From: Polynucleobacter sp. MWH-Loch1C5
GTDB taxonomy: Bacteria; Pseudomonadota; Gammaproteobacteria; Burkholderiales; Burkholderiaceae
Reading direction: 5' to 3'
Assembly (NCBI RefSeq): GCF_018881775.1
Contig: NZ_JACVPR010000001.1
Coordinates: forward strand, 372,001 to 436,000
DNA length: 64,000 nucleotides
In this document: one piece after another, positions 44,405 through 53,124 of the stretch
How positions within the stretch are numbered: the first letter of the stretch is position 1
Layout of the letters: the number at the start of each line of letters is the position of its first letter
Notes under the pieces: generated by a model
The model's input: the letters and a program-made list of their open reading frames with translations, nothing else
The model's database searches: none
What the model was told of the DNA's origin: nothing
Position numbers and translations under genes: made by a program

Positions 44405-45529
44405 TTAAGTCGGGATTTTGATATCAGTCGTCTCTGGTCTGACCCAGCGAGGTGACTCGCGTGACGTATCGATACATCCACCTGCGCCGTAGACTCCTTT
44501 AGGGTCACGGTAGCGCATCATACGATGAAGGACGGTTTGGTATTGTTGGGGGTCTTGTAAAGTGGCTTTGACGCATGACTCGACCAGGCTCTCATTCATG
44601 ACAGGCTCATCTTTGGTATTGCGCTGTACGCCATCTTTCCAGTGATAAACCTCAACGCATTTAGTCTCCAGGGTAAATGGGTAGTCCCGTTTCCAAAAAT
44701 TGGTAAATAAATTACGGCCTAGGTAAATAACCCAAGAACCTTCATAGCCAGGGATGTCAGAAGAAATACCATCGGGGTTCCTGAACCAAACTCGATCGCC
44801 CGGAACGTAATACTTCATAGGAAAAGGTTCTTCCATAGAACCATACTCGCGCAAAAATACTTCGTGAAATTCCCCTGAGCGAATGGCACGTTTAGCTGAG
44901 CGCTCTTCCAATAGCTTTAATAGGCCAGGATTGGTGCTCTGAATTTCTCGCGCAATACTCAGTAAGATGACGTACTCGGTGGCCCGGTAACAAGAGAAAG
45001 AGTAGGCATGCTCAGCATCTTGTGGTTGAGTCGCTTTGACCAAAGCATCAATGATGGGCACACCATCATTCAGGAGAAAACCTGCCTCTTCATCGTAATG
45101 CCAACAATCTTCCGGCCGTTCAATAGCGTCAGTATCAAAGTTCAGTGCCGCCCGATAACCCGCATCCACCACATACAGACGAATACGAATTGCAGACTGC
45201 AACTCAGCCAAACTGGGGAAAGCAAATGGAATCGTCGCCAATAGCATGGCGATTAATATTTCACGCTCAAGATCACGTGCGGTTTTTTGTAAATGGAGTT
45301 TTTCGTATAAACGCGTGGTATCCCATGCGGGGGCATAGCGTTCTTGGAATGCATCTGATAGATAAAAGCCTAGATAATCAGGGCCATGCTCAACGCATAA
45401 GTCATCCTGCAAACCATAACTTTGTACGTAAGCCTTGAATTCCTCTTCTAGCCCTTGACCTTGGCTAGCTAGCTGAATGAAATGTATGCCACATGTCTTA
45501 AATCGACGCTGTGGAGCATTAGCACTCAT
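44405..45529 (-). CDS. Tgl-like (NlpC/P60-type) transglutaminase homologue in the cyanophycin locus
   Basis: A 374-residue cytosolic protein with a GAGGG ribosome-binding site. The middle resembles Bacillus spore-coat transglutaminase Tgl as I remember it. It shares a helix with a central cysteine (YSFSCYRATEYVILLSIA, Cys180; Tgl has FECATAIVIIYYLA) and downstream strands YVPGDRVWFRNPD (241-253) and YEGSWVIYLG (262-271; Tgl has LGDCLYFKNPE and RGENVILLG). The Tgl catalytic Glu of the RGEN motif aligns with Ser here, so activity may differ. The first 110 and last 90 residues are extra. It is the last gene of the ABC-DUF1854 operon, 13 bases after DUF1854. Confidence 0.6.
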   Translation of the reverse strand: MSANAPQRRFKTCGIHFIQLASQGQGLEEEFKAYVQSYGLQDDLCVEHGPDYLGFYLSDAFQERYAPAWDTTRLYEKLHLQKTARDLEREILIAMLLATIPFAFPSLAELQSAIRIRLYVVDAGYRAALNFDTDAIERPEDCWHYDEEAGFLLNDGVPIIDALVKATQPQDAEHAYSFSCYRATEYVILLSIAREIQSTNPGLLKLLEERSAKRAIRSGEFHEVFLREYGSMEEPFPMKYYVPGDRVWFRNPDGISSDIPGYEGSWVIYLGRNLFTNFWKRDYPFTLETKCVEVYHWKDGVQRNTKDEPVMNESLVESCVKATLQDPQQYQTVLHRMMRYRDPKGVYGAGGCIDTSRESPRWVRPETTDIKIPT

Positions 45530-45542
45530 AAATACCCTCTTA

Positions 45543-46004
45543 TTACAAGAATCGATCGAGCAAACGTCGACTCTGCTTATCTAAACGGCCGATATCATCA
45601 ATGAGGTATTGCACGCCGTTGGTATCCGAAATCAAACAAGTTGTTTTCGAAATGCGGCGGATATCATCCTCACCTTTTAATATCAGAACCGTATCTCCTC
45701 GATTCGTTTTTATCTGCCAACTACTCGGTGTAGCAAAAGTAGATACCGAGACGATTTTTTCAATCAGTGGCACAAACTCTCTTGAGGCTAATTCTTCTTG
45801 GATGAGGGCCTGGTTGTCAATAGTGGTTTCAGCTAGGTGATTGAGCCACACCAACTCATGACCCTCACGATCCATGATTGATATACCGTCTTGGGCCGCA
45901 CTAATGGGGAAAGCTCGCACCGGAACCACCTGCTCAAAAACCTGGCCTTGTTCATCCCTTAAACGTAAGTGCCCAAAAGCATCCCGACTTAACTGAAAAC
46001 TCAT
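45543..46004 (-). CDS. DUF1854 protein associated with cyanophycin metabolism
   Basis: A 153-residue protein without signal or membrane segments. It starts SFQLSRDAFGHLRLRDEQGQ, and the regions VVPVRAFPISAAQDGISIMDREGHELVW and DTVLILKGEDDIRRI fit DUF1854. The C-terminus reads YLIDDIGRLDKQSRRLLDRFL. DUF1854 proteins are recurrently found beside an ABC transporter and cphA in Burkholderiales, and databases label them by that association. ATG 46004 overlaps the ABC gene stop (ATGA). The biochemical role is unknown. Confidence 0.82.
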   Translation of the reverse strand: MSFQLSRDAFGHLRLRDEQGQVFEQVVPVRAFPISAAQDGISIMDREGHELVWLNHLAETTIDNQALIQEELASREFVPLIEKIVSVSTFATPSSWQIKTNRGDTVLILKGEDDIRRISKTTCLISDTNGVQYLIDDIGRLDKQSRRLLDRFL

Positions 46005-48268
46005 GATTGCACCTCGTTACCTACATCATCTTGCGATTGACGGGCTTGGGTTTCATACATACGCCGATAGGTACCATCCAAGGCCATCAACTCATCATGG
46101 TTGCCGATTTCAATGACCTGACCTTTATTGAGAACCACCAAGCGATCTGCTTTTCTGAGAGTCGAGAGACGATGTGCAATCGCAATCGTAGTTCGACCTC
46201 GCACCAGATTATCTAGCGCCTTTTGAATTTCTTTTTCAGTAGTACTGTCTACCGATGAAGTGGCCTCATCCAAGATCAGAATTTGCGGATCGATCAGTAG
46301 CGCACGGGCAATTGAAATACGCTGACGCTCACCACCGGAGAGTGACTGACCACGCTCACCGACGAGGGAATCATAGCCATGCGGCAGGCGTAAGATGAAT
46401 TCATGGGCATGGGCAGCACGTGCAGCCTCAATAATTTCTGCGCGAGTAGCACCCGGCTTGCCATAAGCAATATTTTCTGCAATCGTGCCAAAGAATAAGA
46501 AAGGTTCTTGCAGTACCAAACCGATATTTTTACGGTAGTCTGCAATGGCAATCGAGCGAATATCAACACCATCTAAGGTAATCGTTCCTTCTGCTGCATC
46601 ATAGAAACGACAAATCAAGTTGACCAAGGTACTCTTGCCCGAACCGCTGTGACCTACCAAACCAATCATCTCACCGGGCTGAATATCCAGACTGATTCCC
46701 TTAGTAACAGCGCGATTGCCATAACGAAAACCAACGTTTTGTAGTTGAATATGACCGCGTACTTTATCGATGCGGACCGGGTTTTGTGGTTCAGGAACGC
46801 TCGAGACGTGATCCAAGATATCAAAAATTCGTTTGGCGCCTGTCGCCGCTTTTTGTGTAAAAGAAACGATGCGACTCATAGAGTCTAAACGCGTATAAAA
46901 ACGGCCAATATAGGCTAAGCAAGCAGTGAGCATACCTACTGTAATCGCATCATTAGCGATCTGCCAAATACCAAAAGCCCAAACGACTAAGAGGCCAATT
47001 TCTGTGAGTAAGGTAATGGTGGGTGAGAACAAGGCCCATACACGATTGACACGGTCATTGACTGCTAAGTTATGTTGGTTCGATGCATGAAAACGCTCAG
47101 CTTCACGATTTTCTTGGGCAAACGCTTTCACCACTCGAATACCCGGAATAGTGTCTGCTAAAACACTCGTGACTTCAGACCAAATACGATCGATCTTCTC
47201 AAAGCCAAAGCGCAATTTATCGCGCACGATATGAATCATCCACGCAATAAATGGTAGCGGCAATAAGGTCACCAATGCCAACCACGGATCGATCGAAATC
47301 AAGATCGCAGCGGTCATGAGAATCATGAGCACATCGGTGGCAAAGTCGAGTAAATGCAAAGATAAAAACAAACAAATACGATCAGACTCAGAACCAATAC
47401 GGGCAATTAAATCACCCGTTCTCTTCGCGCCAAAATACTCCAAAGATAATTTCATGAGATGGCTATAGGTCGTGGTTCGCAGATCTGCACCAATACGCTC
47501 ACTCACCAAAGCCAGAATATAAGTTTTAGCCCATCCCAATACCCAGGCCACAATCGCAGCGAGCAATAAGCCACCCATGTATAAGCCAGCCAAGGTGTAA
47601 TTCATTGGTTGACCATTTTGATAAGGCAAGAGCACATCGTCCATCAATGGCATCGTCAAATAGGGTGGCACCAAGGTCGCAGCCGTTGAAGCTAGGGTGA
47701 GAACGAAGCCCCAAAAGAGTTGGGTTTTATAGGGCTTTGCAAAACGCCACAAACGAAACAGGGTCCAGGTCGATGGCGGAGTCGTGTTTTCAGCAGTACA
47801 TGCCGGACATTCATCCTGATCGGGTGGCAAAGGCACCCAACAAGTGGGGCATAAAGATTGCGCATCGGCCTCATCATCCTCATCAGCAACACCCTGTGCA
47901 CGCTTTTGCTCTAACTTCAATTGCTGCACCAATCGATTGGCTGCAGGGTTTTGTGCCAAAGTAAAACGCCAAATACCTAAACGTTCTTGAGTATTGACGA
48001 GCTCTAGGCTACCCACCCCCGCATGATCGTGAAGATGTAATTTAAGCGCAGGGTCAACCGACCAAGTTTGCGCCAGCACACCTTGATCATCAAACGCCAG
48101 TAAGCGTTGTGTCGTCAAACATAAGAGGCTTTGGCTATATTGCAACTTTAAATTGAGATCCAATTCCACACAAACCAACACCTGCTCCTCAAGCGCCAAA
48201 ACGGGTTGAAGAGCCTCTTGCCAAAAAGGGGCAAGACGCGTAATGGGCAGGCGATTTTGTGAGTTCAA
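46001..48268 (-). CDS. ABC exporter with N-terminal PH-like region and zinc ribbon, cyanophycin-associated
   Basis: A 755-residue fused half-exporter. Residues 1-125 form a beta-rich region (SLLCLTTQRLLAFDDQG) resembling bacterial PH-like domains. A zinc ribbon with Cys140, Cys143, Cys154 and Cys157 follows. An ABC type-1 six-helix domain spans about 180-470, then an ATPase with Walker A GHSGSGKSTL, signature LSGGERQR, Walker B ILILDEATSS and IAHRLST. It leads the minus operon with DUF1854 and the Tgl-like gene, divergent from cphA'. The cargo is unknown; a lipid, peptide or cyanophycin-derived dipeptide is possible. Confidence 0.85.
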   Translation of the reverse strand: MNSQNRLPITRLAPFWQEALQPVLALEEQVLVCVELDLNLKLQYSQSLLCLTTQRLLAFDDQGVLAQTWSVDPALKLHLHDHAGVGSLELVNTQERLGIWRFTLAQNPAANRLVQQLKLEQKRAQGVADEDDEADAQSLCPTCWVPLPPDQDECPACTAENTTPPSTWTLFRLWRFAKPYKTQLFWGFVLTLASTAATLVPPYLTMPLMDDVLLPYQNGQPMNYTLAGLYMGGLLLAAIVAWVLGWAKTYILALVSERIGADLRTTTYSHLMKLSLEYFGAKRTGDLIARIGSESDRICLFLSLHLLDFATDVLMILMTAAILISIDPWLALVTLLPLPFIAWMIHIVRDKLRFGFEKIDRIWSEVTSVLADTIPGIRVVKAFAQENREAERFHASNQHNLAVNDRVNRVWALFSPTITLLTEIGLLVVWAFGIWQIANDAITVGMLTACLAYIGRFYTRLDSMSRIVSFTQKAATGAKRIFDILDHVSSVPEPQNPVRIDKVRGHIQLQNVGFRYGNRAVTKGISLDIQPGEMIGLVGHSGSGKSTLVNLICRFYDAAEGTITLDGVDIRSIAIADYRKNIGLVLQEPFLFFGTIAENIAYGKPGATRAEIIEAARAAHAHEFILRLPHGYDSLVGERGQSLSGGERQRISIARALLIDPQILILDEATSSVDSTTEKEIQKALDNLVRGRTTIAIAHRLSTLRKADRLVVLNKGQVIEIGNHDELMALDGTYRRMYETQARQSQDDVGNEVQS

Positions 48269-48407: not shown

Positions 48408-50558
48408 ATGACTAAAAAATATATAGAAATCAAAGACTTAAAGATGATCAAGGGGCCCAGCATGTGGACCTATACGCCGATCATCGAAGCACTTGTTGAT
48501 ATTCATGATTTAGAAGACTACCCCTCCAACCTCTTACCTGGCTTTACCGACCGTCTAGTTGCCTGGCTACCGAGTCTAGAGGAACACCATTGCAGCTACG
48601 AAGAACACGGTGGTTTTGTGCGTCGCTTACACGAAGGAACCTGGCCGGCTCATATCCTGGAACACGTCACCTTGGAATTACAAAATTTGGCCGGCATGCC
48701 CGGTGGTTTTGGTAAGGCTCGCGAAACCAGTCAGCGCGGTGTGTATAAGGTGGTCGTCAGAGCCTGGCATGAAGAGATTACCAAAAAAGCGCTCTTTCAT
48801 GCTCGCGATCTCTTGATGGCAGCGATTGAAGATCGCCCCTTTGACGTACCTCAGGCAGTCAGTGAAATTGAGGAGTTAGTCGATAGCCTCTATCTAGGCC
48901 CGAGTACAGCGTGTATTGTGAATGCCGCGCGTGATCGCGATATTCCCACACATCGTCTGACTGAAGGCAATTTAGTGCAGTTGGGCTATGGCTGCAAACA
49001 GCGTCGTATTTGGACCGCAGAAACCGATCAAACCAGTGCGATTGCTGAAGGCATTTCTCGAGACAAAGACTTAACTAAATCTCTCTTAGCATCCTGTGGA
49101 GTACAAGTACCTGAGGGTCGCATGGTGGATAGCCCCAGTGATGCTTGGGCAGCCGCACAAGACATTGGTGTGCCTGTGGTGGTTAAACCATATGACGGTA
49201 ATCATGCACGTGGCGTGTTTACCAATCTCACCTCCCAAGATGAAATCGAAAAAGCCTACGTGAATGCTCTGCGTCAAGGTAGCGGCGTGATGGTGGAACG
49301 TTATATCGATGGTGATGAGCACCGCCTCTTGGTCGTGGGTCGCAAAGTTGTGGCGGCCTCAAAAGGTGAATCCGCTTGGGTGACCGGTGATGGTCGTCGC
49401 ACTGTACGTCAACTGATTGATGAAGAACTCAATACCGATCCACGCCGTGGCGATGCCGAACTACAACCACTCAGCCCTGTCTACTTCGACCACCTCCTCG
49501 ATATTACTCTAGCCAAACAACAATTAGAGCTCGATGCAGTTCCTACTGCAGGTCAAGAAGTATTAGTACAGCGCTCGGGCAATATGGCTTTTGAAGTGAC
49601 ACATTTGATACATCCTGAAGTCGCCCACCAAGCCACCTTAGCCGCGCGCGTCGTTGGTTTAGACATTGCTGGCATTGACTTGGTCACCACAGATATTTCT
49701 AAACCACTTGAAGAAACGGGTGGCGCGATTGTGGAGGTGAACGCGGGCCCAGGCTTAATCATGCATCTTAAACCCGCCATAGGTACGCCACAGCCCGTTG
49801 GCCAGGCGATTGTCGAACATCTTTTCCCCAATGGCGATCAAGGACGCATTCCGATTGTGGGAGTCGCCGGTTCACGCGGTAAAACTTTAGTTGCCCAGTT
49901 ATGCGCCCACCTATTACAACTGACCGGTCTCAAAGTCGGTCTCGCTTGTAGTAAAGGGGCGTACTTTAGCCAACGCTTGCAAGTCAGCGGCGATTGTGCC
50001 AATTGGGCAAGCTCAAATCGAATCCTCATGAATCGTCAAATCGAAGCGGCTGTTTTTGAAAACAGTAATCGCATGATTCTGAACGAGGGCTTAGCCTATG
50101 ATCGCTGCCAGGTCGGCATCGTTACCCATTTAGACCCTAACGACACCGTGCCTGAGTGCGATATTTTGGAAGAGCGTCAAATCTACAATGTCTTACGTAC
50201 TCAGGTGGATGTGGTGCTACCTCAAGGTTTTGCGGTGCTCAATGGTGACGATCCACTCGTTGCTGAAATGGCTGAACTCTGTGATGGTGAAGTCATTTTC
50301 TTCAGTCGCTATGGCATGAATGAAACCGTACAAAAACATCTTGAGGCAGGCGGTAAAGCGATTTTTACGGACGACACCCAAATTGTTCTGGCAGAAGGTG
50401 CTGAGCGTCATGTCCTCATGCCGATTAAAAACATCCCCGTACTTCAGGCTAGCACTAAGCAACATACTTTAGAGTATGTCTTAGCGGCTATCGGTGCGGG
50501 TTGGTCAATGAATTTATCAAAAGAAGTGATGGCCGCTGGCCTACAAACTTATCAATAA
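48408..50558 (+). CDS. cphA': Cyanophycin synthetase paralogue lacking the Mur-ligase C-terminus (CphA' type)
   Basis: The protein has 716 residues against about 850-900 for CphA. The N-terminal domain has a metal-protease-like H-x2-E-H-x3-E motif (His82, Glu85, His86, Glu90 in AHILEHVTLE). The ATP-grasp domain is intact (LGPSTACIVNAA, RLTEGNLVQLGYG, KPYDGNHARGV, EVNAGPGLIMHL). The Mur-ligase part keeps a P-loop-like GSRGKT (Lys492) but has ENSNRMI where cphA has ETARGGI and HLDPNDTVP for NIGEGDHLG, and it ends before the last Mur domain. This parallels CphA2, which joins beta-Asp-Arg dipeptides. Only 1 base separates it from cphA, so it is not a frameshifted remnant. Confidence 0.85.
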   Translation: MTKKYIEIKDLKMIKGPSMWTYTPIIEALVDIHDLEDYPSNLLPGFTDRLVAWLPSLEEHHCSYEEHGGFVRRLHEGTWPAHILEHVTLELQNLAGMPGGFGKARETSQRGVYKVVVRAWHEEITKKALFHARDLLMAAIEDRPFDVPQAVSEIEELVDSLYLGPSTACIVNAARDRDIPTHRLTEGNLVQLGYGCKQRRIWTAETDQTSAIAEGISRDKDLTKSLLASCGVQVPEGRMVDSPSDAWAAAQDIGVPVVVKPYDGNHARGVFTNLTSQDEIEKAYVNALRQGSGVMVERYIDGDEHRLLVVGRKVVAASKGESAWVTGDGRRTVRQLIDEELNTDPRRGDAELQPLSPVYFDHLLDITLAKQQLELDAVPTAGQEVLVQRSGNMAFEVTHLIHPEVAHQATLAARVVGLDIAGIDLVTTDISKPLEETGGAIVEVNAGPGLIMHLKPAIGTPQPVGQAIVEHLFPNGDQGRIPIVGVAGSRGKTLVAQLCAHLLQLTGLKVGLACSKGAYFSQRLQVSGDCANWASSNRILMNRQIEAAVFENSNRMILNEGLAYDRCQVGIVTHLDPNDTVPECDILEERQIYNVLRTQVDVVLPQGFAVLNGDDPLVAEMAELCDGEVIFFSRYGMNETVQKHLEAGGKAIFTDDTQIVLAEGAERHVLMPIKNIPVLQASTKQHTLEYVLAAIGAGWSMNLSKEVMAAGLQTYQ

Positions 50559-50559
50559 T

Positions 50560-53124
50560 ATGGAACTGACTCGCATCCGCGCACTTCGAGGCCCTAATAT
50601 CTGGGGCAAACATACAGCCATTGAAGCTTTGGTTTATTGCGAACCGAATGAGCGAGCTTTGGATAATCTTCAAGGTTTCGAAACACGCTTACGTAGTCGC
50701 TTCCCACAATTAGGCCCCATATCCAATACCCAAAATGAGCCCGTCTCATTAGCACACGTACTCGAGGTTTGTACTCGCGACCTACAAGCGCAGGCAGGTT
50801 GCCCTGTGGCCTTTAGTCGCACCATGAGCACACCAGATGATGGTGTCTATATCGTTGTTGTTGAGTACACCGAAGAAAAAGTGGGAAGACTCGCCTTAGA
50901 TCTAGCCATCAAACTTTGTCAGTCTGCCTTAATTGATAATGGCTCACACCTTGAGGAATACATCTCCCAGCTTCAGGAACTTGATGAAGATATTCGCTTA
51001 GGCCCTAGCACCGCATCGATCGTAGATGCGGCCATTGCGCGAGGCATCCCCTATCAACGCTTAACAGAAGGCAGCCTCGTACAACTGGGCTGGGGCAGCA
51101 AACAAAGGCGGATTCAGGCAGCTGAAACGAGTGAAACGTCTGCCATTGCTGAATCGATTGCACAAGACAAGGATTTAACTAAGCGTCTCTTAAATGCTGC
51201 TGGTGTACCAGTTCCCATGGGTAAGATTGTCACAACAGCGGATGAGGCATGGGAAACCTATTTAGAGCTGAAAGTGCCTGTGGCCATCAAACCCCGTGAT
51301 GGTAATCAAGGCAAAGGTGTAGCTGTCAACATCAGCACACGTGAACAAATTGATATCGCTTTTGCTGCTGCCTCTAAGATTTCTTCAGAAGTGATTGTGG
51401 AGAGGTATTTACCGGGACAAGATCACCGCTTTTTAGTGATTGGCAATCAATTGGTTGCTGCTGCCAGACGTGAACCTCCCTATGTCACGGGTGACGGCGT
51501 GCATACGGTGCGCGAACTCGTTGAAGAAGTGAATAAAGATCCACTGCGTGGCGATGGTCACGCCACATCACTGAGCAAAATCAGGATTGATGAAATCGCT
51601 ATTTCCACGCTCAAAAATCAAGACTTAAGCCCTGAGTCAGTACCCGCGAAAGGTTTGCGCGTGACTCTCAGAAATAATGCCAATCTCAGCACCGGGGGTA
51701 CGGCTACCGATGTGACTGAAGATGTTCACCCTGATTTAGCTGCTTCTGCGATTGCTGCTGCACAGATGGTGGGCTTAGATATTTGTGGTGTCGACGTAGT
51801 CTGCGAAAACGTTTTCAAACCGCTTGAAGAACAAGGTGGCGGTATCGTTGAAGTGAATGCGGCCCCTGGCTTACGTATGCATCTACATCCTTCATACGGC
51901 AAAGGCCGACCTGTCGGTGAAGCCATTATTTCCACGATGTTTGGTCCCGGAGAGGACGGTCGTATCCCTACCGTCGCCGTGACGGGCACGAATGGTAAAA
52001 CCACGACAGTGAGAATGATTGCTCACATTTTTAAGGAGCAAGGCCTGCGCGTAGGTTTTACCGGCACCGATGGTGTTTATGTGAACGGTCGACGTATTGA
52101 CACGGGTGACTGCAGTGGTCCGAAAAGTGCCCGTAATGTTTTAATGCATCCTGATGTGGATGCTGCTGTCTTAGAAACTGCGCGTGGCGGTATTTTGCGT
52201 GAAGGCCTTGGCTTTGATCGCTGTCATGTGGCTGTTGTGACCAATATTGGTGAAGGTGATCACCTAGGCATGAACTACATCAACACGGCCGCAGAAATTG
52301 CGAATGTGAAACGCGTGATTGTGCAAAATGTGGCTCCGTCGGGGATGGCTGTTCTCAATGCCGCAGACCCCTTGGTTGCCAAAATGGCTAAAGTTTGCCC
52401 CGGTCAAGTCACCTACTTTGCTAGAGATGTACAGCATCCGATCATGGCCAAACATCGCGCCCAAGGTCAGCGTGTGATTTTTGTACAAGACCAACACATC
52501 ATAGCTGCTGAAGGTAAGAAAGAGTTTCATATTCCTCTTAGCTCGATTCCCATCACTGCCAATGGCATGATTAGCTTTCAGGTAGAAAACACCATGGCTG
52601 TAATTGGTGCTGCATGGGCACTCAATATCTCTTGGGATGTGATTTCTCAGGCGCTATCAAGCTTTGTTAGCGATGCCAACAACGTGCCTGGGCGCTTTAA
52701 TTTATTTACTTATCGTCAAGCCACTATCATTGCTGACTATGGCCATAATCCTGATGCGATTGCCGCTTTGTCTGAAACAATCAGCCAAATGCCAGCCAAG
52801 AAACGTATGGTTGTTATCAGTGGCGCAGGTGATCGTCGCGATCAAGATATTCGTAAACAAACAGAAATCTTAGGACAGCACTTTGACCATGTGATTCTTT
52901 ATGAAGATCAGTGCCAAAGAGGTCGAGCTGATGGCGAAGTGGTTGCCATCTTACGTCAAGGCCTAAGCGACTCTAAAATTGTGAAGAAAATTGAAGAGAT
53001 CCAAGGTGAGTTCAAAGCGATTGACTCCGCCTTTAGTCAAATAGAAGCGGGCGATGTTTGCTTAGTACTCGTTGATCAAGTAGAAGAGGCTTTGGCTCAT
53101 ATCCAAAGCAAGATAAGTAGCTAA
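50560..53124 (+). CDS. cphA: Cyanophycin synthetase
   Basis: It polymerises Asp and Arg into cyanophycin, a nitrogen and carbon store. The 854 residues include an N-terminal domain, an ATP-grasp domain (LGPSTASIVDAA, KPRDGNQGKGV, EVNAAPGLRMHL) and a full Mur-ligase half with GTNGKTTTVR (Lys480), ETARGGI, NIGEGDHLG and the C-terminal DYGHNPDAI. The N-domain hydrolase motif is degraded: AHVLEVCTRDLQ has Val70 and Asp74 where cphA' has His86 and Glu90. By motif it should be a competent but primer-dependent polymerase. It is co-transcribed with cphA' and converges on tcdA. Confidence 0.95.
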   Translation: MELTRIRALRGPNIWGKHTAIEALVYCEPNERALDNLQGFETRLRSRFPQLGPISNTQNEPVSLAHVLEVCTRDLQAQAGCPVAFSRTMSTPDDGVYIVVVEYTEEKVGRLALDLAIKLCQSALIDNGSHLEEYISQLQELDEDIRLGPSTASIVDAAIARGIPYQRLTEGSLVQLGWGSKQRRIQAAETSETSAIAESIAQDKDLTKRLLNAAGVPVPMGKIVTTADEAWETYLELKVPVAIKPRDGNQGKGVAVNISTREQIDIAFAAASKISSEVIVERYLPGQDHRFLVIGNQLVAAARREPPYVTGDGVHTVRELVEEVNKDPLRGDGHATSLSKIRIDEIAISTLKNQDLSPESVPAKGLRVTLRNNANLSTGGTATDVTEDVHPDLAASAIAAAQMVGLDICGVDVVCENVFKPLEEQGGGIVEVNAAPGLRMHLHPSYGKGRPVGEAIISTMFGPGEDGRIPTVAVTGTNGKTTTVRMIAHIFKEQGLRVGFTGTDGVYVNGRRIDTGDCSGPKSARNVLMHPDVDAAVLETARGGILREGLGFDRCHVAVVTNIGEGDHLGMNYINTAAEIANVKRVIVQNVAPSGMAVLNAADPLVAKMAKVCPGQVTYFARDVQHPIMAKHRAQGQRVIFVQDQHIIAAEGKKEFHIPLSSIPITANGMISFQVENTMAVIGAAWALNISWDVISQALSSFVSDANNVPGRFNLFTYRQATIIADYGHNPDAIAALSETISQMPAKKRMVVISGAGDRRDQDIRKQTEILGQHFDHVILYEDQCQRGRADGEVVAILRQGLSDSKIVKKIEEIQGEFKAIDSAFSQIEAGDVCLVLVDQVEEALAHIQSKISS

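Follow-up and report, generated by a model that had tools for sequence, protein, structure and literature searches.

In cyanophycin synthetases of the CphA1 type, one chain of N-G-M architecture carries three active sites, in the N domain, in an Asp-adding G domain and in an Arg-adding M domain. The Synechocystis enzyme (SuCphA1) provides the reference numbering used throughout. Its N-domain site is the motif Cx19HxxEH, in which C59, H79 and H83 are metal ligands and E82 is the general base, with H57, F67, R70 and E87 as supporting residues (PMC9262961). In its G domain, residues R323, S396 and R458 make up the Asp pocket (PMC9427784), and the substitution H267A is reported to inactivate the G domain of known enzymes. 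The present analysis deals with the distribution of these sites between two adjacent genes, cphA' and cphA, in a 64,000-nucleotide stretch (hereafter the window) of the 1.65 Mb genome of Polynucleobacter sp. MWH-Loch1C5, whose completeness is reported as 99.98%. It leads to the view that CphA' is probably a dedicated cyanophycin hydrolase making primers for a primer-dependent CphA, in other words that a duplicated three-site synthetase has divided its work.

Several described systems approach this arrangement. The Tatumella enzyme TmCphA1 lacks the N motif and works when primer is added (PMC9262961), the behaviour proposed here for CphA; it has 0/4 of the motif residues, whereas CphA keeps two of its residues (His66 and Glu69) and adjoins a motif-bearing partner. 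TmCphA1 becomes primer-independent when supplied in trans with SuCphA1 H267A; D585A H586A, or with an isolated N domain bearing solubilising changes (PMC9262961). This engineered N+ G- M- protein resembles the proposed CphA' in having only the N site and in rescuing a primer-dependent partner, but it is a point mutant from one species, whereas CphA' is natural and truncated, keeps H267 and has lost the Asp pocket. The CphA2 enzymes of cyanobacteria share with CphA' the loss of the M P-loop and of Mlid and the retention of the G domain; however, CphA2 is described as devoid of the N motif (PMC9262961) and appears by length to keep the G-domain large loop. Membership of CphA' in the CphA2 family was rejected because CphA' carries the whole N motif, although its altered M P-loop and absent Mlid do fit.

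Two cphA genes are also on record, as here, in the Betaproteobacteria Ralstonia eutropha H16, Sideroxydans, Herminiimonas and Accumulibacter ('Group 1'). The copies lie side by side in Sideroxydans and Accumulibacter, and the activated-sludge 'Group 1' adds an ATP-binding cassette (ABC) gene and has no cphB (PMC10687191; PMC5178258); in Accumulibacter both neighbouring copies are reported to be evenly expressed (PMC10687191). Herminiimonas has two copies and no cyanophycinase (PMC5670224), and the Sideroxydans paper names its neighbouring pair CphA1 and CphA2. A division of active sites is not mentioned in the portions of these papers that were examined, and no report of such a split was found among open-licence PubMed Central papers. 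The two-gene arrangement itself is already published.

Complementary active sites in the two proteins

Both proteins belong to the cyanophycin synthetase family, as judged by matches to the NCBIfam profiles PRK14016 and TIGR02068. CphA passes both cut-offs (1227.9 bits for a cut-off of 877 and 992.5 bits for a cut-off of 850), and CphA' passes the first (1029.1 bits) and remains below the equivalog cut-off of the second (741.5 bits). A first-pass annotation, made from the DNA letters and their translations, had placed two open reading frames here, and both are intact at the stated positions. They lie on the same strand with a single nucleotide between them (TAA at 50556-50558, T, ATG at 50560). 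All 13 close relatives of CphA' from named genomes are from Polynucleobacter; the length of 716 residues is constant in these 13 named loci and becomes 730 in three other Polynucleobacter genomes (L074, L076 and L078). A pseudogene or frameshift was ruled out, since reading frames are intact, lengths are similar and ratios of non-synonymous to synonymous substitution rates (dN/dS) are well under 1. The name cphA' is that used for the Ralstonia homologue.

Alignment to SuCphA1 reveals the whole Cx19HxxEH motif in CphA', as Cys62 (C59), His82 (H79), Glu85 (E82) and His86 (H83), together with the supporting His60 (H57), Phe70 (F67), Arg73 (R70) and Glu90 (E87). In the same columns, CphA keeps His66 and Glu69 and has Val70 at H83 and Asp74 at E87, and its loop corresponding to that bearing H57 and C59 is shortened and contains neither residue. 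The motif that the first-pass annotation had read in CphA' (His82, Glu85, His86, Glu90) matches the known hydrolytic site at the level of sequence, and the change to Val70 and Asp74 that it had noticed in CphA falls in the columns of H83 and E87. It was equally right in regarding the Mur-ligase half as degraded and truncated in CphA' and complete in CphA. CphA' ends near SuCphA1 residue 722, so that Mlid is wholly missing; its M P-loop reads GSRGKTL where the consensus is GTNGKTT, Thr replaces the His in the catalytic D585/H586 pair, and the DHLG stretch is gone. In CphA the M domain and Mlid are all kept. The annotation had missed Cys62, the missing Asp pocket of CphA' (a deleted large loop, R323 changed to Gly and R458 to Ile), the replacement of His267 by Gln in CphA and how widely the pattern is conserved across Burkholderiales.

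This conservation was examined in a sample of 300 Burkholderiales genomes searched with CphA, 114 of which matched. Among the matches listed, 103 genomes are of the pair type, nine have a single CphA (G229 being so assigned by its genus) and two are of another kind (G030 and G136, with CphA' only or a fragment); all genome counts out of 103 or nine given below rest on this split. Besides that of the window, 97/102 pair genomes were read at the locus, the five others (G005, G011, G051, G174 and G287) being left out for short or split matches; of the single-type genomes, 6/9 were read. A class-wide search matched 19/369 genomes, 16 of them outside the order; 14/16 were read (three pairs and 11 singles), with G314 and G527 left out. 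The analysed set, window included, comprises 114 CphA' and 114 CphA and derives from 97 sample pair genomes, 13 named Polynucleobacter loci, the three pairs found in another order of the class and a single contig-end CphA'.

The five-residue N set (H57, C59, H79, E82, H83) is found in 114/114 CphA' and 0/114 CphA, and CphA' has all eight N-site residues (F67, R70 and E87 in addition) in 114/114 cases. For the pairs, these counts were reproduced by a separate N-domain alignment and by an alignment-free pattern search. This complementary pattern is far beyond chance and is widely conserved in Burkholderiales. The CphA of loci L076, L078 and L100 read HxxEH without the Cys/His loop and are possible intermediates or reversions.

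In the G domain, the Asp pocket (R323, S396, R458) is present in 114/114 CphA and 17/17 single CphA1 and in 0/114 CphA', with uniform changes in the latter (Gly for R323 in 109, deletion of S396 in all 114, Leu or Ile for R458 in 110); this loss makes CphA' probably unable to elongate. The ATP set (K220, K261, R309, D431, E450) is kept by 111/114 CphA' and 114/114 CphA, and position 267 is His in 108/114 CphA' and Gln in 110/114 CphA. A three-way split, in which CphA' adds Asp and CphA adds Arg, was suggested by this last distribution and was rejected because the Asp pocket is in all CphA and in no CphA', and because the pairs of L064, L107, L112 and L117 have H267 in neither protein. In the M domain, the catalytic set (K499, E558, D585, H586, H748) is complete in 114/114 CphA and in 8/114 CphA'. 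Eight long CphA' (866-883 amino acids; L028, L037, L038, L041, L044, L045, L048 and L067) keep the M catalytic residues with the Asp pocket gone, possibly an intermediate stage. The three sites of a self-sufficient CphA1 (N, Asp-adding G and Arg-adding M) are thus assembled in neither chain of the pair. Set against a primer-dependent CphA1 (no N motif, G and M sites intact), CphA lacks the motif and has an intact M domain, and its G domain is intact at the tested positions except for the change of H267 to Gln.

What remains of the M core in CphA' is not uniformly degraded. In the 104 CphA' with a degenerate M core, 15/239 columns are at least 97% fixed, and these include columns 603 (Arg) and 607 (Asp), both invariant in 114/114 CphA'. 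These are the two M-domain residues named as touching the N-site-bound polymer in SuCphA1 (PMC9262961), and the chance of both falling among the fixed columns is 0.004. The isolated N domain is, moreover, described as insoluble until its M-packing loop is altered (PMC9262961). The M core of CphA' may thus serve as support and wall for the N site.

Evolution of the pair

Gene order is constant, with CphA' first and on the same strand in 109/109 loci where both genes were read (median gap 27 nucleotides). In a FastTree phylogeny, all CphA' group in a single clade (support 1.0), and the CphA' and CphA families are united in a clade apart from other CphA; support for the CphA clade itself is low (0.27). 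The Asp-pocket loss and the N-site loss are common to all members of their respective families, so each is probably one old event. Loss-only (Dollo) parsimony on this one tree counts 14 losses of the M set within the CphA' clade and none in CphA. Within-family distances of CphA' and CphA co-vary (r 0.73 over 110 loci, with 0/1000 permutations as high). Both proteins are under purifying selection among the 13 Polynucleobacter loci, in which the N domain has the lowest dN/dS of the CphA' domains (median 0.015) and the M core the highest (0.043), and in which the dN/dS of CphA is highest on its N domain (0.032); these medians rest on 13-25 sequence pairs each. In the three pairs from another order, CphA' has lost H267 in 3/3 and some ATP residues in 2/3 and has kept the N site in 3/3, which designates the N site as the preserved part of CphA'.

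Outside the pairs, 21 CphA genes were found. Seventeen stand singly and unite the three sites in one chain; this count excludes the four genes of two extra loci, L113 (in G269) and L134 (in G056). Each of these loci holds a second pair of full-length CphA in opposite orientation, without N motif, with Gln at 267 and with G pocket and M intact; a cyanophycinase lies close by, and the same genomes also hold the CphA'/CphA system.

Proposed division of labour and alternatives

A scheme for the pair can be proposed on these grounds. CphA' and CphA would both descend from a three-site cyanophycin synthetase that was duplicated long ago. CphA would slowly start a first chain, which the N domain of CphA', acting as an endo-cyanophycinase, would cut into short primers; CphA, itself unable to cut, would then extend these with Asp through its G domain and with Arg through its M domain. 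The G domain of CphA' would have lost the known route for accepting aspartate. Together, the two proteins would accomplish what a single CphA1 achieves in other organisms, and they would probably do so by forming a mixed oligomer or by working closely together on the chain as it grows. The sequence features, their conservation and the linkage of the genes are established here, and from them we infer enzymatic activity, the supply of primers in vivo and the physical association of the pair. Primer-making by CphA' is the best reading because of the complementary sites, the same-strand adjacency at one nucleotide and the published rescue in trans. The first-pass annotation had proposed a split between primer maker and polymerase, which these arguments favour, or alternatively a recycling of beta-Asp-Arg ends, for which no evidence was found.

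A number of observations weigh against primer-making by CphA'. CphA probably lost its N site, and CphA' its Asp pocket, just once in an ancestor, so that the 114 cases are not independent. The separation is not perfect, as 3/111 CphA still read HxxEH (without the Cys) and as the M set survives in the few CphA' counted above; the ATP set and H267 are kept in CphA' more often than would be necessary for a scaffolded enzyme that only hydrolyses. The frequent Gln at 267 in CphA, together with the inactivating effect of H267A, casts doubt on elongation by CphA itself. Among the fixed M-core columns, 603 is Arg in 102/114 CphA too, so that 607 weighs more. AlphaFold models CphA' poorly (mean predicted local distance difference test score (pLDDT) of 54), with the Cys62 loop below 50. 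Four CphA, those of L113 and L134, have no N motif in either copy, and TmCphA1 is without the motif and without any partner mentioned in the portions of PMC9262961 examined, so a motif-less CphA need not have a partner. Finally, according to a review, the homologues of Ralstonia eutropha H16 gave no detectable cyanophycin, a result that can be read either way.

The strongest competing explanation, unlikely in our estimation, is that CphA' is a second ligase with an altered acceptor, whose G domain would join something other than Asp (for instance beta-Asp-Arg, as in CphA2) and whose N domain would trim. The retention of the ATP set and of H267 and the uniform replacement of the Asp pocket would be understood in this way, and CphA2 has likewise lost the M P-loop and Mlid (PMC9427784). 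However, it is precisely H267 and the ATP residues that are lost in the pairs from the other order, where the N site stays. In addition, CphA2 has no N motif by the account of PMC9262961, two CphA2 chains seem, from their lengths, to keep the loop that CphA' has lost, and an altered G pocket could simply be dead.

Somewhat less probable still is that CphA' mobilises the polymer, its N domain breaking down stored cyanophycin where cyanophycinase is mostly missing. Indeed, a cyanophycinase over cut-off occurs in 7/103 pair genomes versus 9/9 single-CphA genomes (three of the seven carry an extra cph locus with the cyanophycinase close by), and the window genome shows no match to models of known breakdown enzymes, namely cyanophycinase TIGR02069, S51 peptidase PF03575, IaaA PF01112 and IadA TIGR01975. 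Yet slow cleavage with mostly tetrameric products is what has been published for the N domain (PMC9262961), which would therefore not set free Asp and Arg, and cphA' directly precedes a synthetase gene; the known dipeptidases are missing as well, and another degradation enzyme is possible. As for CphA' being a decaying duplicate, an inactive subunit holding CphA in shape, the repeated M-domain decay and the vanished Asp pocket would suit it, but this is very improbable given N-site residues fixed throughout, the supporting F67 and E87 included, the low N-domain dN/dS and the fact that a mere scaffold is not expected to keep Zn ligands and a general base while other sites are lost.

Neighbouring genes and fate of the polymer

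The features of the locus are collected in Table 1. Upstream and divergent from cphA' lies a run of genes, two of whose products match NCBIfam models named for cyanophycin metabolism. The DUF1854 gene is present in 101/103 pair genomes, 0/9 single-CphA genomes and one other (G030, the genome with the contig-end CphA'); it is at most 10 kb upstream in 88/101, on the opposite strand in 83 of those 88. In the short flanks taken, the ABC gene was seen at 81/97 pair loci, 77 times on the opposite strand, and both genes are found in 20/20 wider flanks, which were chosen for a nearby DUF1854. Ahead of its transmembrane region, the ABC protein is extended at the N terminus by some 170-180 residues, which include a zinc-ribbon-like CPTCW...CPAC stretch, and its relatives in the 20 wider flanks across the order are 66-73% identical (best segment).

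The transglutaminase-like (TGL) gene is found in 29/103 pair genomes versus 1/197 other genomes (29 of the 30 TGL genomes are pair genomes). It was rejected as a core part, being limited to those 29 and usually located elsewhere in the genome. The catalytic Cys of Bacillus Tgl appears aligned in this protein, in a weak match (E 1.4e-4).

Table 1. Features of the cyanophycin synthetase pair and its upstream neighbours (positions of the window)
Feature	Position	Strand	Remarks
TGL-family (Bacillus-type) transglutaminase-like protein	44405..45529	-	same gene run; possible accessory
DUF1854 protein	45543..46004	-	NCBIfam NF052234 'cyanophycin metabolism-associated DUF1854 family protein'
ABC exporter-type protein, divergent	46001..48268	-	NCBIfam NF052233 'cyanophycin metabolism-associated ABC transporter'
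cphA' (716 amino acids)	48408..50558	+	N domain intact; G with ATP site, without Asp pocket; M degenerate; Mlid absent
N-domain metallopeptidase-like site of CphA'	48585..48677	+	alignment to SuCphA1; residue roles as described in PMC9262961
Site of the deleted Asp-binding large loop (SuCphA1 S396-G399) in the G domain of CphA'	49578..49592	+	alignment; roles as described in PMC9427784
Arg597 and Asp601 of CphA' (SuCphA1 603 and 607)	50196..50210	+	fixed in 114/114 CphA'; roles as described in PMC9262961
cphA (854 amino acids)	50560..53124	+	N site lost; M domain and Mlid complete
cphA G domain	within 50560..53124	+	all tested catalytic and Asp-pocket residues present apart from His267, which is Gln
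Decayed N-site helix of CphA (His66, Glu69, Val70, Asp74)	50755..50781	+	preceding Cys/His loop shortened
Gln250 of CphA, position of SuCphA1 His267 (G-domain P-loop)	51307..51309	+	alignment
Intact M-domain P-loop GTNGKTTT of CphA	51985..52008	+	alignment
Asp567-His568 of CphA (SuCphA1 D585/H586)	52258..52263	+	alignment; mutation of this pair served to inactivate the M domain in SuCphA1 (PMC9262961)

Polymer export is a live possibility in view of these neighbours. In its full form, which we regard as speculative and rather unlikely, the locus would specify a separate kind of polymer system that delivers its product out of the cytoplasm: CphA would start and extend a cyanophycin-like polyamide, CphA' would cut primers and export-sized pieces, the ABC and DUF1854 proteins would export them and, in some lineages, the transglutaminase would fix them to proteins. 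Such a system would explain the near-invariable retention of the ABC and DUF1854 genes together with the mostly missing cyanophycinase.

Implications

By their motif, the Burkholderiales CphA analysed here would score as 'primer-dependent'; considered as pairs, each lies beside a likely primer maker, and the reported class of motif-less CphA1 (about 17-20%) may partly need re-reading. The pairing might also explain the lack of measurable polymer when such genes were expressed. Biotechnology would gain from it a naturally occurring pair of proteins with which chain number could be controlled, and it raises the question of how the polymer is used without a known cyanophycinase. If primer-making by CphA' is true, nature would have divided a three-site polymer machine, with primer-making and polymer-making in separate proteins, a split that otherwise exists only as laboratory mutants in the portions of the literature examined.

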